Assembly: GCF_947495315.1 (NCBI RefSeq) | Contig: NZ_CANLYD010000006.1 | Location: forward strand, 310,001-374,000 | Length of the DNA: 64,000 nt | From: an uncultured Aquimarina sp. | GTDB taxonomy: Bacteria; Bacteroidota; Bacteroidia; Flavobacteriales; Flavobacteriaceae | Direction of reading: 5' to 3' | In this document: positions 42,745 to 53,427 of the stretch, piece by piece | Numbering within the stretch: position 1 is the first letter of the stretch | Layout: each line of letters starts with the position of its first letter | Position numbers and translations under genes: made by a program | Notes under the pieces: model-generated | What the model was told of the DNA's origin: nothing | Database searches by the model: none | The model's input: the letters and a program-made list of their open reading frames with translations, nothing else

Positions 42745-43863
42745 ATGTATTTAAGCCAATTTATCGATACTATTCAACCTAGAAATGTAGTAATCCCAAC
42801 ATTTTCTATGCTCAGTACAAAAACGAGCCATCGTTTTCAAAACTTTTTTAATAATGAATCGAGAACAGCTTCTAATCTAGCTACTGTATTATGGCATATT
42901 ATTAGTTATTGCCCAAAATACACATCAATACTAGTAAACTCCAGAAATTATAAAAGAAATCCATTTCCTAAAAAAGAACAATATATCATTAATAATAAAG
43001 GCAAGTACAACCTTTTGGTGTTTGACAGTAAATTTAAACAAGAAACACCGCTACTTATTCCTGTAGAATTGACTAGAAATGAAGCGAAACAAGGTTATAT
43101 CAAATGGAAAAAAGCCACACAAAAAATAGTAAAGAGTACAAATTTAAAAACAAGAAGTACTTCAGAAATTTATGGACGACTTGCTAACCAGGTTGATGAG
43201 AACTTTGCTTATGATATGCTTAAAAACTATCCCTTGGATATTATTATTGCATCCAAAGAAAGTCAGCTAAATCTAACTGCTGGATATACGTCATCCAGTC
43301 CAATGGGAATAAGCTTAACTGCTAACGGAAAGCAAACGTCTACAGCTGGAGCCATAGCCACAGATGTTAATGGCGATTTGGGAGTAACGGTTAGTTATCA
43401 CAGTATTGAAGACAGTCAAGGTCAAATCCCCATTGGTAAAAACATATGGGTGGATGGGAAAAAAGCGACTATTACTTCGGTAGATATTATTAGTGATAGT
43501 TGTTTCGCTACCTACAATAATCAAAACATACAAATTCCTAATGTGATTATTGGATTAAAAGGCCCTTTATCTGGTCAATCCCCAAGACAATATGATTCAG
43601 TAGATTTTTATGGATTGAAATCGGGGTCTAAAAATAGTATAGTTCAGGGTTGGTCCATGGAAATTCCATTTGTACAACCTTATACTCAATTAAAAGTAAT
43701 AACAGACCCGGATACCAATCCTGGAGATTCAGGAGCAGCTCTTATTGATAGTGATGATCATATCATAGGGTTTGCTTTTTATCGTACAGGCGTAGGTGCA
43801 CGAGTACGATACTCTACCTGGATATGGGCTGATTCTGTTTTTAAGGCACACAATATTATCTAA
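42745..43863 (+). CDS. Trypsin-fold serine protease without export signal, large N-terminal region
   Basis: A 372-residue protein. The C-terminal half (about 195-372) shows a chymotrypsin-type protease: a His219 in GVTVSYHSI, Asp251 in IISDSCFATYN and the nucleophile Ser329 in NPGDSGAALIDSDDHIIGF. The first 190 residues are unlike known domains; they include ELTRNEAKQGYIKWKK and a helical patch around RLANQVDENFAYDML. There is no signal peptide or lipobox, so the protein is probably cytoplasmic, which is unusual for a trypsin. Its stop is 19 nt before the ATG of the next gene at 43883, so the two form a unit. Confidence 0.7.
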   Translation: MYLSQFIDTIQPRNVVIPTFSMLSTKTSHRFQNFFNNESRTASNLATVLWHIISYCPKYTSILVNSRNYKRNPFPKKEQYIINNKGKYNLLVFDSKFKQETPLLIPVELTRNEAKQGYIKWKKATQKIVKSTNLKTRSTSEIYGRLANQVDENFAYDMLKNYPLDIIIASKESQLNLTAGYTSSSPMGISLTANGKQTSTAGAIATDVNGDLGVTVSYHSIEDSQGQIPIGKNIWVDGKKATITSVDIISDSCFATYNNQNIQIPNVIIGLKGPLSGQSPRQYDSVDFYGLKSGSKNSIVQGWSMEIPFVQPYTQLKVITDPDTNPGDSGAALIDSDDHIIGFAFYRTGVGARVRYSTWIWADSVFKAHNII

Positions 43864-43882
43864 TTTAAAAATAGTACTAATT

Positions 43883-44872
43883 ATGAGTTTTTGGAACAAT
43901 TTGTTTAAAAAGAGAGCGGAAGATTGGTTTTATTGCCACGTTCCCCCTGATCAAACCCCAAATGACATTACTATTAAAGAGTTACAACCTGATGTAGACT
44001 ATCTCAATGTTTTTCTTAAAAAGATGCGAGTCGTAAGCGTAAGAAAAGGACTTTCTAAGTTTTATGGAGCTGTACATTCGTATTGTAACCTATACCATCC
44101 AAGTGGTGTCAATGCTGAATTTAATGTAGTGACTACAGCAAGTAAACTTATGGAATTGGATGCCAAAAACATTGATAGAGTAGTATCGATGGATCAACGT
44201 ATGGTAGGGCCAACAGCGTACAAAGGAGGAGATTTTGATATGGAAATAGGATTGTTTTCTATCAAATCAGCGGATTTAGCTAAACCATACTTAGGATTGT
44301 TACAAGAAGCTTCAACTATGGCTGGTGTATCTTTTATTGGAACAGCTTTACCCTATGCAGGTATTATTAAAAAAGGAGTAGACTTAATTACAGGTAGTCA
44401 GGCTGATACAATATTAGAAATTGGACTTTCAAAAACCTTTGCTACGATCAAAACAGGATATTATGTTGTTATGCGTATCGATAAGGATAAAGTAAATCAA
44501 AAAGATATATTTATTGATAAAGATTCGAGGTTGGTCGATAGGAATGGAAAGGCAATAAAGGATTATCCATATATAGTAATTCAGATATCAGGAACAAATG
44601 AAAAAGATGACTGGGCCAGAATACCAGAATTACAAGAAGCTTATAAAAAGCTAATGGATGACGTGCGAAAATTAGATTTCACCTCTTCAGAAGACTCTTT
44701 AACTGTCTTTAGACGGACAGTTTTGACTTCTAATGATTTAAATTTTAACGATGCTAAGCGTATCGTTAAGCAGGTACAGGATAAGGTGAAAGAAATTTTG
44801 GATACAACTCAGGTTGCGCATAATACTTCTGCAGAGCTACCTTCTTTAGAGAGTTATAATATATATGCATAA
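43883..44872 (+). CDS. Unknown cytoplasmic protein paired with the trypsin-like protein
   Basis: A 329-residue protein from the ATG at 43883; the longer frame to 43796 overlaps the protease and is not preferred. No signal peptide. A short hydrophobic patch around ASTMAGVSFIGTALPYAGII may be a buried helix or a membrane insertion. The C-terminal part contains GYYVVMRIDKDKV and YIVIQISGTNEKDDWARI, with the helical end LNFNDAKRIVKQVQDKVKEIL. No family recognised. About 245 bp of its 3' part are copied at 49800-50040. Candidate substrate or partner of the protease. Confidence 0.65.
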   Translation: MSFWNNLFKKRAEDWFYCHVPPDQTPNDITIKELQPDVDYLNVFLKKMRVVSVRKGLSKFYGAVHSYCNLYHPSGVNAEFNVVTTASKLMELDAKNIDRVVSMDQRMVGPTAYKGGDFDMEIGLFSIKSADLAKPYLGLLQEASTMAGVSFIGTALPYAGIIKKGVDLITGSQADTILEIGLSKTFATIKTGYYVVMRIDKDKVNQKDIFIDKDSRLVDRNGKAIKDYPYIVIQISGTNEKDDWARIPELQEAYKKLMDDVRKLDFTSSEDSLTVFRRTVLTSNDLNFNDAKRIVKQVQDKVKEILDTTQVAHNTSAELPSLESYNIYA

Positions 44873-49642: not shown

Positions 49643-49806
49643 AAAGGTATAGGAGGGAAACATAATGTGTATGTAATGGGAAAGCAACTAAATATTCCTT
49701 CTAATCAAGTGTTTCATAACCAATCTTAATTCAAAATTTTATTCTTGAAGATTAGATCAAAGCCACTTTGCTTTTAGATCTTTGTACTTGGTTCTTCCGA
49801 TAGGGA
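49643..49806 (-). pseudogene. 3' fragment of the LytTR regulator gene at 52729-53427
   Basis: About 164 bp match 52614-52778 closely, covering the spacer behind the regulator and the last 16 or so codons (stop codon equivalent at 49757-49759). It ends at GATAGGGATGG, where the next fragment starts. It is not translated as part of a gene. Confidence 0.85.
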
Positions 49807-50046
49807 TGGAAAGGTAATAAAGGATTATCCATATATAGTAATTCAGATATCAGGAACAAATGAAAAAGATAATTGGGCCAGAAGACTAGAATTACAAGAA
49901 ACTTATAAAAAGCTAATGGATGAGATGCGAAAATTAGATTTCACCTCTTCAGAAGACTCTCTAACTGTCTTTAGGCGGACAGTGTTGACTTCTAATAATT
50001 TAAATTTTAACGATGCCAAGCGTATCGTTAAGCAGGTACCAGGATG
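49797..50046 (+). pseudogene. Internal fragment of the unknown gene at 43883-44872
   Basis: About 245 bp are nearly identical to 44530-44778, with scattered changes such as GATGAC to GATAAT. The matching part encodes KDYPYIVIQISGTNEKDNWAR and TSSEDSLTVFRRTVLTS. It joins the LytTR fragment at the shared CGATAGG/GGATGG sequence, and ends next to a repeat copy. It has no start codon. Confidence 0.88.
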
Positions 50047-50218
50047 CCTGTCCTGAACTGTCACACTGAGTTTATCGAATTGCAGAATGGTTTAGAGTGT
50101 AAATACAGTTCGTCGATTATTTAATACAGTCTACCTATTATTGTTATACACACGGCTATTAATTTTGAGTCTTAATTCCTTTTATAATTATTTTACTCAA
50201 AATTTAAATCGAATAATA

Positions 50219-51469
50219 ATGAGAATTAACTATATGCTATTTTTATTTATATGTTTAAGCTTTTCTTGTGATGCTCAAAAAAATGGAGTTAATAATTCTA
50301 AAAATCTAGTTATACAGTTCATCAACGGTAATTGGTTTAATGGACAGACTTTTGAAAAGAAAACCGTTTGGCTAAAAAAAAGCTTAATCAATTATACAAA
50401 CAAAGAAGAAGTAGATACAATTATTGATTTATCAGCTAAATATGTAATATCTCCATTTGCCGAAGCTCATAACCATAATCTTGAAAGTGATTACAAATTA
50501 GATGAAAGAATCAATTCATATTTAGACAATGGTATTTTTTATGTAAAACTTTTATCGTCAATTAAAAAAAGAATTACTCCTTTAATGCATCATTATAACA
50601 AATTCGATGGTTTAGACATTAGTATGGCACATGCACCTTTAACAGCTACAGATGGACATCCAATTGCCCTTCGAAAAAAGTTTCTTGAATATGGTCGTTT
50701 TGAAGGGCTCTTTAATTCTATTGAAGAAATTGAATATCACGGATATGTTATTATAGATGATTTAGAGGACTTAAATAAAAAATGGGATAAAATTTTATCT
50801 TTTTCCCCTAATTTTATAAAAATAAATTTATTGTATTCGGAAGAGTATGAGAAGCGAAAAAACGACACTACTTTTTTTGGTAAAAAAGGATTGAATCCAA
50901 AATTAATTCCAAAAATAGTTAAAAAAGCACACGCATCTAATTTAAGGGTTAGTGCCCATGTGGCTACAGCATATGATTTTCATGTAGCTGTTAATTCAAA
51001 TGTTGACGAGATTGCACACTTGCCTGAAATTCATAATGGAAAACTTATTGATATCGAAGATGCTATTTTAGCTAAAAAAAACGATATTACTGTAGTAACG
51101 ACCGTATCGCTTGTTAAAAAAAATAAGGAAAAAGAAAACTATAAAGAATTGTTAGAGAATGTATGCTCCAATTTGAAATTATTAAAAAGAGTAGGTGTGA
51201 AATTAGCTATAGGTTCTGATATATATAATGATAATTCAACTCAAGAGTTTAATTTCTTATATCAATTAAACATTTTTTCTAATCAAGAGTTGCTAAAAAT
51301 GTGGACAGAAAATGCAGCCAATACGATTTTCCCAAATCGTAAAATCGGAAAGCTTGAAGAAGGCTTTGAAGGCAGTTTTTTAGTATTAGACAAAAACCCT
51401 TTAATCGATATTTTAGATATTAATAAAAGTATAGTTCTTAAAGTTAAAGACGGTTTCATCTTAGAGTAA
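50219..51469 (+). CDS. Amidohydrolase-superfamily lipoprotein
   Basis: A 416-residue protein from the ATG at 50219 (lipobox LSFSC, Cys17), preferred to 50141. The metal motif HxH is HNH (84-86) in PFAEAHNHNLES; further ligand candidates are His in LRVSAHVATAYD, His in IAHLPEIHNG and Asp in LAIGSDIYND. The end SFLVLDKNPLIDI is typical of imidazolonepropionase-like amidohydrolases. The Lys that is often carboxylated may be that in FIKINLLYSE. The substrate is unknown. It precedes the fused LytS-LytTR gene by 27 nt, so the two may be cotranscribed. Confidence 0.82.
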   Translation: MRINYMLFLFICLSFSCDAQKNGVNNSKNLVIQFINGNWFNGQTFEKKTVWLKKSLINYTNKEEVDTIIDLSAKYVISPFAEAHNHNLESDYKLDERINSYLDNGIFYVKLLSSIKKRITPLMHHYNKFDGLDISMAHAPLTATDGHPIALRKKFLEYGRFEGLFNSIEEIEYHGYVIIDDLEDLNKKWDKILSFSPNFIKINLLYSEEYEKRKNDTTFFGKKGLNPKLIPKIVKKAHASNLRVSAHVATAYDFHVAVNSNVDEIAHLPEIHNGKLIDIEDAILAKKNDITVVTTVSLVKKNKEKENYKELLENVCSNLKLLKRVGVKLAIGSDIYNDNSTQEFNFLYQLNIFSNQELLKMWTENAANTIFPNRKIGKLEEGFEGSFLVLDKNPLIDILDINKSIVLKVKDGFILE

Positions 51470-51496: not shown

Positions 51497-52381
51497 ATGA
51501 ATTTTAATTTCAGTAAAATTTCCAAACATATAATATTTTGGGTGTTATATCTTCTTTTATGGAGCGTACACGACCTTAACTATAATATTAATATATTGGA
51601 AAATTTAAAGACAAATGCCATACCTTTTTTGTCTTATGGAGCTTTAGTATATATCAATCTATATATTTTAATTCCGATATTTTTGTTAAAAAAAAGAATT
51701 GCAAGTTATATTCTGTTATTGATTTTAAGTATAGTCGGTATTACTTTAATTACGTCATATTATCTTTCTTTTTACTTTGAAAACATTAGTATATCAACAT
51801 CAGATTTTTTTGTATCCATAAGAGGAAAAATAGCAATTATTACTGAAGTAATTATATCATTATGCTTATCTATGGTTTTATTTTTGATTGACGAATGGTA
51901 TAAAAAAGAGCAGTTAATCAAAGACTTAGAACAAAGGCAGTTTGCATCAGAACTAAGCCTTACAAATAATCAAATAAATCCACACTTGCTTTTCAACTCC
52001 CTCAACAGTATTTATGTAATGTTAGATGAAAAAGTTAATATAGAAAATGGTCAAAGCCATATTTTCATAAAGTCGGATGGAATGGTGATCAAAGTCTTTA
52101 TAGATGATATAACTTTTATAGAAACTGCTAACGATTATATTTATATCAACACAACCAATAAAGATAGATATTTAACTTTAGTTTCATTAAAGAACATAGA
52201 AAATGAGTTACCGAAGGAAAAATTCATGAGAGTACATCGATATTATCTAATTGGTATACATCATGTTAATAAACTAGAAGGTAATTTAATACACATAGGG
52301 AAAACCAAAATTAAAATTAGTAGAACGCTACGCAATCAAGTATATAAATCTATTATTGGCACTAAACTTATAGAACGTTAA
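51497..52381 (+). CDS. Fusion of LytS kinase front with a LytTR DNA-binding domain
   Basis: A 294-residue protein. Residues 1-135 form four membrane helices as in the LytS-type kinases here (WVLYLLLWSVHDLNY, YINLYILIPIFLL). The dimerisation stretch contains NNQINPHLLFNSLNSIYVML with His163, but the kinase catalytic part is absent. After about residue 180 a LytTR domain begins: HIFIKSDGMVIKVFIDDITFIE, FMRVHRYYLIGIHHV and ISRTLRNQVYKSI. The receiver domain is missing too. The result is a predicted membrane-bound transcription factor. A one-step in-frame deletion between adjacent sensor and regulator genes explains it. Confidence 0.85.
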   Translation: MNFNFSKISKHIIFWVLYLLLWSVHDLNYNINILENLKTNAIPFLSYGALVYINLYILIPIFLLKKRIASYILLLILSIVGITLITSYYLSFYFENISISTSDFFVSIRGKIAIITEVIISLCLSMVLFLIDEWYKKEQLIKDLEQRQFASELSLTNNQINPHLLFNSLNSIYVMLDEKVNIENGQSHIFIKSDGMVIKVFIDDITFIETANDYIYINTTNKDRYLTLVSLKNIENELPKEKFMRVHRYYLIGIHHVNKLEGNLIHIGKTKIKISRTLRNQVYKSIIGTKLIER

Positions 52382-52728
52382 AAGAAGTATTTAGGAATCA
52401 GTAATTATATAAAATATGCGGTATCCGCCGTTTTACTATATAAACATATTTGTATTATCGTGTACTTGTGTTATAAGTTGTCCTGAGCGTGTAGAAGGAT
52501 CAATTTACTTTAGTTAAAAGCGAAAGTTGTTGTTACAGATTCTTGAAAAAATTTATTCTACAACTGTAATCGAATACACTTTGCCCGAAACTAACATGTC
52601 CTGAAACCTGTTGAAAGGAATAGGAGAGAAGTGGGAGTGTTTATGGAAAGGGAAAGCAACTAAATATTCCTTCTAATCAAGTGTTTCATAACTAATTTTA
52701 ATTCAAAATTTTATTCTTGAAGATTAGA
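52382..52728. other. 347-bp region with two repeat copies
   Basis: It carries repeat copies at about 52478-52500 (TTGTCCTGAGCGTGTAGAAGGAT-type) and 52596-52619 (ATGTCCTGAAACCTGTTGAAAGGA-type), then the spacer that is duplicated at 49643. No gene is visible. Confidence 0.6.
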
Positions 52729-53427
52729 TCAAAACCACTTTGCTTTTAGATCTTTGTACTTGGTTCTTCCGATAGGGATACGTTCTCCATTTTTAAGCTC
52801 AGCTATATATTTGCTTCCAGATTCTACAATAATTTCCTTTACCTCAGACATCTTCAGCAAATATGATTTGTGAATGCGTTCAAAAGAAAACGCTAACAAC
52901 TGTTCTAATTTTTCAAGAGATTTATCATGTAACTCTTTTTTTCCATCTTTTAGAAAGAGCTCTGTATAGACTCCTGCACCTTTAATATAAAGTACATCTT
53001 CAATGGGTATTAACTGAATTCTGTGCCTTTTTTTTATGGCCAAAAATTTGGTTTCATTTGCAACTATTTTTTCATTTGTTAAGGTCTTATGTAAAGCTTT
53101 CTCCAACCGATCTCTATTAAAGGGTTTAGGTACAAAATCTAATACTCCATATTCAAAAGCAGTAATTGCTTGATCCTTGTTGGCAGAAATAATTATTGTA
53201 TGAAACGATTCGGAAACTGCTGTCGTAAGCAAGTCAAAACCACTATCACCGTTAAGGTTTAAATCCAGTAACATAAGGTCCAATGAACTATTCTCAATAA
53301 ATCGTAATGCCTCCGGAAGCGTGTTAATATGTTTTAGCGATTGTAATGTATTGCCAAAAATTTCTCGAGTCATTCGTTCAATTCTTTTGGCGATCCTTGA
53401 TTCGTCTTCAACGATTAAAATGTTCAT
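52729..53427 (-). CDS. LytTR-family response regulator (third system)
   Basis: A 232-residue regulator. The receiver has VEDESRI, Asp55 in LMLLDLNLNGDSGFD and Lys in FVPKPFNRD; the LytTR part (about 130-232) has KFLAIKKRHRIQLIPIEDVL, FERIHKSYLLKMSEV and the end ERIPIGRTKYKDLKAKWF. It is more distant from the other two regulators. The kinase gene lies 4 nt upstream. Its 3' end is copied at 49643-49806. Confidence 0.92.
   Translation of the reverse strand: MNILIVEDESRIAKRIERMTREIFGNTLQSLKHINTLPEALRFIENSSLDLMLLDLNLNGDSGFDLLTTAVSESFHTIIISANKDQAITAFEYGVLDFVPKPFNRDRLEKALHKTLTNEKIVANETKFLAIKKRHRIQLIPIEDVLYIKGAGVYTELFLKDGKKELHDKSLEKLEQLLAFSFERIHKSYLLKMSEVKEIIVESGSKYIAELKNGERIPIGRTKYKDLKAKWF

Follow-up and report, generated by a model that had tools for sequence, protein, structure and literature searches.

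A membrane-bound LytTR protein of Aquimarina, probably a one-component regulator derived from a kinase–regulator pair

In the window analysed here, the whole stretch of 64,000 nucleotides from an uncultured Aquimarina sp., one gene (51497..52381, + strand) encodes a membrane sensor part, a kinase His box and a LytTR DNA-binding domain in a single protein of 294 residues. We consider it quite probable that this fusion regulates transcription of its own operon as a membrane-bound one-component protein, that it arose from a PF06580 kinase / LytTR regulator pair by in-frame deletion and that it acts without phosphotransfer. The deletion, of about 0.85 kb in one type of join (type A) or 0.79 kb in another (type B), would have deprived the kinase of its ATPase half and the regulator of its receiver half. 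Comparison of related genomes carries our account of the anatomy of the protein, its ancestry, the two different joins, the selection on the gene and the conservation of a repeat array upstream.

Anatomy of the fusion protein

The gene is one open reading frame with an ATG start and no internal stops. Pfam matched PF06580, the kinase family, at residues 152–179 only, which correspond to positions 2–29 of the 81 in the profile (31.2 bits; cut-off 25.2), and LytTR (PF04397) at residues 197–282, positions 3–93 of 98 (59.2 bits; cut-off 22.6). Neither a HATPase nor a receiver domain (PF00072) scored above cut-off in the 294 residues. The protein has neither the complete His-kinase domain with ATPase nor the receiver with LytTR that characterize a PF06580/LytTR two-component system, and it is not a hybrid two-component protein, whose single chain would contain a kinase, a receiver and a DNA-binding domain. 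With membrane segments and a DNA-binding domain in one chain, it falls among the transmembrane transcription regulators. LytS proper has a membrane sensor domain of its own, 5TM-5TMR_LYT. Neither this domain nor MHYT gave a Pfam match in the fusion at E≤1, so the protein is neither LytS proper nor CoxC-like, and no sensor domain was matched by Pfam. The label "LytS" used in the earlier note is thus apt for the kinase family, PF06580, and not for the sensor.

The predicted structure consists of helices at residues 5–29, 33–63, 68–94 and 108–158, a separate His-box helix at 162–183 and a LytTR fold from residue 188. The model was built from 7 rows only and has a mean pLDDT of 72.8 and a pTM of 0.38; by block, the pLDDT is 76–91 for residues 191–290 (LytTR) and low, 48–63, for about 151–190. 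All 13 PDB matches of the model at E≤0.001 are LytTR domains (3d6w, ComE, AgrA). The hydropathy plot showed three peaks above 1.3, starting at residues 46, 68 and 113, and the first helix stays below that threshold. Four membrane helices are placed by the model, three of them also by hydropathy, at residues 5–158 (51509..51970), with the fourth continuing as one long helix. The remnant His box NQINPHLLFNSLNSIYVML (residues 158–176, 51968..52024), identified by Pfam, is relaxed in the fusions. It is followed by the join of the kinase-derived and regulator-derived parts (residues 177–187, 52025..52057), which was located by alignment with two-gene orthologues, and by the LytTR domain (residues 188–291, 52058..52369), with a Pfam match and a fold match to the LytTR domains of AgrA and ComE; all of these lie on the + strand. 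Because the model has four membrane helices and a KKR loop that connects helices 2 and 3, the two ends of the protein should be cytoplasmic. Reading frame, Pfam and model together bear out the description in the earlier note of a single frame with membrane helices, a kinase His box and a complete LytTR domain, and with no ATPase or receiver. The change-over that it placed near residue 180 lies at residues of about 177–187.

Across the whole genome, 43 LytTR matches and 31 PF06580 matches were obtained at E≤0.001, and the fusion is the sole frame in both lists. Its PF06580 match is also the only one to end at position 29 of the profile; the remaining 30 extend to at least 76. Two matches elsewhere in the genome that spanned the join (C1:246867 and C4:393393) were considered as further His-box/LytTR fusions and are ordinary gene pairs.

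Fused and two-gene forms of the operon

Among 66 genomes of the genus, the same full-length fusion was found in the window's genome and in G054, G056 and G037, whose proteins are 89%, 76% and 74% identical to that of the window. These four and G322, from another genus, share the type A join. The different type B join is found in two genomes, G040 (Aquimarina) and G214 (another genus). G322 and G214 came from a family sample of 397 genomes; the genus, family and order samples overlap. A search at the order level (395 genomes, E≤1e-28) matched the window's own genome alone, and a search of 296 relatives of G214 gave three matches, every one already in the set. The frame is open in all seven fused genomes, and only two join lengths occur. 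The search of related genomes suggested in the earlier note thus recovered the type A join in four others, and the fusion is not unique to one assembly. Chance or misassembly as its source is ruled out by the identical join in these four further genomes.

Separate kinase and regulator orthologues are present in 11 related genomes, within the genus in G020, G027, G112, G110, G044 and the distant G048, and outside it in G202, G404, G208, G487 and G399. Pfam analysis of one pair (G027) confirmed the PF06580/LytTR two-component type. A second orthologous kinase or regulator was absent at E≤1e-18 in five fused genomes, in which paralogues persist, and none was found in G322 and G214 at E≤1e-28. The other kinase and regulator matches in the window's genome (E≤1e-18) are all paralogues of 34–40% identity. 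The two-gene form of G399 (L083:7253-7960) has a kinase frame of 235 residues that is missing most of the membrane part, and no amidohydrolase gene is adjacent to it.

Within the genus, five genomes have the orthologous pair beside the same amidohydrolase gene as the fusion, with 57–69% identity to the fusion; the G048 pair, with no such amidohydrolase alongside, is 39–44% identical. The earlier note took the adjacent pairs at 37 and 46 kb of the window to show the ancestral arrangement. These paralogues align with the fusion at 25–31% identity, against 57–69% for the orthologous pairs, and are too distant to be its parents. Judged by these identities, the parent is an orthologous PF06580 kinase / LytTR response-regulator operon. 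Alignment with the two-gene orthologues also supports the in-frame loss of ATPase and receiver from a kinase–regulator pair that had been proposed.

The joins were compared by the distance from NSLN in the kinase to IFIK in the regulator. For the two-gene form, this was taken in the six genus genomes alone and is 913 nt in five of them and 886 nt in G048. In the window, G054 and G037, the measured type A distance is 66 nt. The same 22 codons are seen by alignment in G056, for which a distance entry of 15 is a mis-hit of the motif, and by translation in G322. The type B distance is 126 nt in G040 and 42 codons, by translation, in G214, a join longer than type A by 20 residues. An in-frame deletion across two overlapping genes, of 847 nt (type A) or 787 nt (type B), would explain each join. 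The product combines a kinase-derived receptor with the DNA-binding domain of its operon partner, where relatives have two genes, and is in this respect a collapse like that of Rsp. A short repeat, GATAAAA (7–8 nt), occurs in frame in both the kinase and the regulator genes of G027, G020 and G112, and a deletion between its copies would produce the 66-nt distance of type A exactly. The corresponding match is only 5 nt in G110 and 3 nt in G044, and 2–6% of other offsets are equally good. The best type B match is 6 nt (G020), a length reached by 11–21% of offsets. These matches are no more than suggestive of a deletion via short repeats.

Fused and unfused forms occupy matching genomic places. 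The same M23-peptidase gene (59% identity) lies downstream of the G040 fusion and of the G110 pair. A LysR-type gene lies downstream of the G056 fusion and, after one other gene, downstream of the G027 and G020 pairs; the G056 and G027 copies are 77% identical.

Trees were calculated from 16 rows, 7 fusions and 9 two-gene forms. The distant G048 and G399, with its incomplete kinase frame, were excluded from these trees and from the identity comparison below. The 5 rows of type A and the 2 of type B never formed one clade in the five best trees. In AU tests, one clade of A and B was narrowly rejected with the amidohydrolase (p-AU 0.042) and with all parts joined (0.039), and was not rejected with the membrane part (0.313), LytTR (0.189) or both together (0.269); in the amidohydrolase tree the type B clade is itself weak (67/42). 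With a smaller first set of sequences, the rejection of one origin was stronger (amidohydrolase 0.0026, all parts joined 0.0157). The five fusions of that set grouped weakly by membrane part (85/80; 82/79 without G048) and by membrane part plus LytTR (61/64; 70/67 without G048). A single origin would also call for a further loss of 60 nt in type A. Two origins appear likely from these trees, though they are not proven. We lean towards the view that the same operon went from two components to one twice independently, each time keeping the sensor, the LytTR domain and the upstream repeats and losing the kinase and receiver, and that the phospho-accepting His was later lost in type B.

The rpoB tree, used as a species tree (11 genomes, G322 and G214 left out), disagrees with the locus tree. 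The window's genome is nearest to G037 by rpoB and nearest to G054 at the locus (loci L059-L069 and L046-L057, respectively). AU tests on rpoB had mixed outcomes, with 0.009 (protein) and 0.187 (DNA) for the five fused genomes as a clade, and 0.139 and 0.049 for the four of type A. The conflict suggests transfer of the locus, and it is possible that the operon has moved between species.

Direct repeats of 142 bp (96% identical) at 49666–49807 and 52638–52779 flank the amidohydrolase–fusion segment, and the right copy takes in the end of a regulator gene (52729–53427). The segment looks like an insertion by recombination. A 242-bp piece (44536–44777) of the gene at 43796–44872 is duplicated at 49798–50039 with 94% identity, directly upstream of the amidohydrolase promoter region. 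The earlier note had tied the deletion to the rearrangement of the window. The join is, however, common to five genomes in two genera, and it is older than the local rearrangement because the proteins of these five genomes have diverged far more than the 142-bp repeats. The origin of the fusion is older, and elsewhere, than first supposed; the core interpretation of the note is likely right.

Putative operator, selection and proposed mode of action

The amidohydrolase gene (PF01979; 50219..51469, + strand) is the probable co-transcribed target. We took its start as the ATG at 50219 (the mechanical reading frame opens at a TTG at 50141), and its end is 27 nt from the fusion gene in the window. 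It precedes the fusion in 7 of 7 fused genomes. Among the 11 two-gene genomes it precedes the pair in 9, the exceptions being G048 and G399. Upstream of it lie three direct repeats on the + strand with a 21-bp period, GTCGATTA (50112..50119), ACCTATTA (50133..50140) and GGCTATTA (50154..50161), the third of which runs into a T-rich stretch. Three such repeats near the consensus ATCTATTA are present in all 16 genomes that have the amidohydrolase there, fused or not, although individual repeats are imperfect, and poor in G037, G322, G202, G404 and G487, for example. At a lag of 21, neighbouring repeats have mean identities of 0.62 and 0.72; for the remaining lags between 12 and 31, the value does not exceed 0.38. 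In 2000 column permutations the observed value was never reached, whether for all 16 genomes, the 7 fusions, the 5 of type A or the 9 two-gene forms; the anchor of the repeats was first spotted by eye, and the permutation test retains that anchor. Repeats 1 and 2, written as a degenerate pattern fitted to the site, match the 6.5-Mb genome once, at the site itself; the reversed control of that pattern also has one match.

The described LytTR sites are 9-bp repeats 10–13 bp apart, and in the available account CoxC and RcoM1 use three repeats (PMC11347149). The 21-bp spacing seen here fits such sites, and the array is a probable operator. The T-rich stretch after repeat 3, which is conserved and is followed by a conserved CTTTA, may be the promoter. 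Since species with either form of the operon have the array, the fusion has most likely inherited the operator of its parent, and the amidohydrolase is the likely target because the conserved array lies upstream of its gene.

The fused gene is under purifying selection. Between the window and G054, dN/dS is 0.063 for the whole gene (dS 0.91), 0.093 for the membrane part and 0.030 for LytTR, with 0.109 for the amidohydrolase; between G040 and G214, it is 0.114 for the whole gene (dS 1.15). Substitutions between the window and G322 are saturated. The missing catalytic halves and the rearranged surroundings in the window might suggest a gene in decay, left over from a broken two-component system, or dominant-negative debris of such a system. 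This is highly improbable: strong purifying selection across a dS of about 0.9–1.1 contradicts it, as do two fixed join lengths with a frame open in all seven genomes and the retention of the upstream repeats.

Mean pairwise identity was compared between the 7 fusions and the 9 two-gene rows. It is about equal for LytTR (0.72 against 0.771) and for the amidohydrolase (0.666 against 0.695). The first membrane helix, which bears the motif HDLNY, is also about equally conserved (0.786 and 0.768); the second (0.631 and 0.726), third (0.549 and 0.608) and fourth (0.779 and 0.843) are slightly less so in the fusions (ratios 0.87–0.92). The drop is far larger in the helix preceding the His box (0.527 against 0.807) and in the His box itself (0.647 against 0.965). 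The divergence of that helix, which lies between TM4 and the His box, and the slight divergence of helices 2–4 could mean that the old signal path is gone and that the membrane part is a mere tether, anchoring a LytTR domain that binds its operator constitutively, with sensing lost along with the kinase. We regard this as rather unlikely, as a tether would have no need of a conserved TM1 with HDLNY and the membrane part has the low dN/dS given above.

Relaxation of the His box in the fusions is what loss of phosphotransfer predicts. All 11 two-gene kinases have the exact motif NPHFLFN, against 2 of 7 fusions (Fisher p 0.0025, a value that ignores shared ancestry). Variants are NPHLLFN (window and G322), NTHVLFN (G054, with Thr for the Pro preceding the His) and, in type B, SPEVLYN and SPEVLFN. 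The phospho-accepting His is kept in all five type A proteins and is Glu in both of type B (L051:7678-8622 and L078:7362-8306). For the closest pair, window and G054, the stretch from His box to join has a dN/dS of 0.039, against 0.067 for the remainder, and it is therefore still constrained and does something; the retained role is perhaps structural. Phosphorylation might still be relevant if a different PF06580 kinase, paired with the fusion in a mixed dimer, phosphorylated the type A His in trans and so shifted the placement of LytTR. The retained His, the low dN/dS of this stretch and the 30 other PF06580 matches in the genome would agree with such a role, which is nonetheless quite unlikely given the lost Pro beside the His in G054, the Glu in both type B proteins and the absence of a receiver to take the phosphate.

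A membrane-anchored one-component regulator, as proposed in the earlier note, is the best reading because purifying selection acts on the gene, LytTR and the upstream repeats are kept and the His box is relaxed. Against it we count the His in five of five type A proteins, the somewhat lower conservation of helices 2–4 and the constrained stretch from His box to join. In such a regulator, the long fourth helix, followed by the helix of the former His box, would relay the state of the four-helix sensor to the LytTR domain. This domain would bind the three direct repeats upstream of the amidohydrolase and, once bound, control the amidohydrolase–regulator operon with no phosphotransfer. Dimerisation, signal sensing, DNA binding and autoregulation are steps that we infer. 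We have a slight preference for activation of the operon over its repression.

Comparison with known systems

The orthologous operons form a natural before-and-after set, with two proteins or one, two joins, the same repeats and the same neighbouring gene. It thereby becomes testable what a kinase and receiver contribute beyond sensor and DNA-binding domain, and how readily a system can do without phosphotransfer. If true, the twofold collapse is a case of parallel evolution opposite to the usual story of one component becoming two.

BtsS/BtsR is an example of the PF06580/LytTR two-component systems, the parent kind; the fusion differs in having neither ATPase nor receiver. Transmembrane transcription regulators, for which an origin from two-component systems has been suggested (PMC10269533), and the hybrid regulators of Bacteroides are, like the fusion, single proteins with membrane segments and a DNA-binding domain. 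The Bacteroides hybrids, as described, retain kinase or receiver domains, both of which are lost here.

Nine of the 43 LytTR frames of the window's own genome, longer ones, were inspected. In eight, membrane segments are predicted and Pfam finds no receiver or His-kinase domain; the ninth is a response regulator. The eight (L085-L092) resemble the fusion in having membrane segments followed by LytTR and no receiver, and differ in their membrane parts and in having no PF06580 remnant. As membrane LytTR proteins are common, the end product is an ordinary architecture, and the documented route to it is the unusual part. Much less certainly, some of the many membrane LytTR proteins in these bacteria could have come from such a collapse. 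A PF06580–LytTR fusion was not named in the titles and abstract beginnings covered by our literature search, and may be in print elsewhere.

CoxC of Afipia carboxidovorans is a membrane-bound single-component MHYT–LytTR regulator that binds three direct repeats (PMC11347149). Like it, the fusion is a membrane LytTR protein in one chain with three direct repeats upstream of a neighbouring gene. Unlike the fusion, CoxC has an MHYT sensor and is described as a repressor, and the available text on it mentions no kinase remnant and claims no origin from a pair (PMC11347149). The precedent that we found for a change from two components to one at a single locus is Rsp of Neisseria gonorrhoeae, a fusion of nps/npa, a PilS/PilR-like pair (PMC10269533, PMC6528607). 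The accounts available differ over its role, with repression of pilA in one and apparently no action on pilE transcription in the other (PMC10269533, PMC6528607). In both Rsp and the fusion described here, the membrane receptor of a kinase is fused with the partner's DNA-binding part, where relatives have two genes. The protein families differ, PilS/PilR-like in Rsp and PF06580/LytTR here, and for the present fusion two joins, selection on the gene and a kept repeat array are seen.
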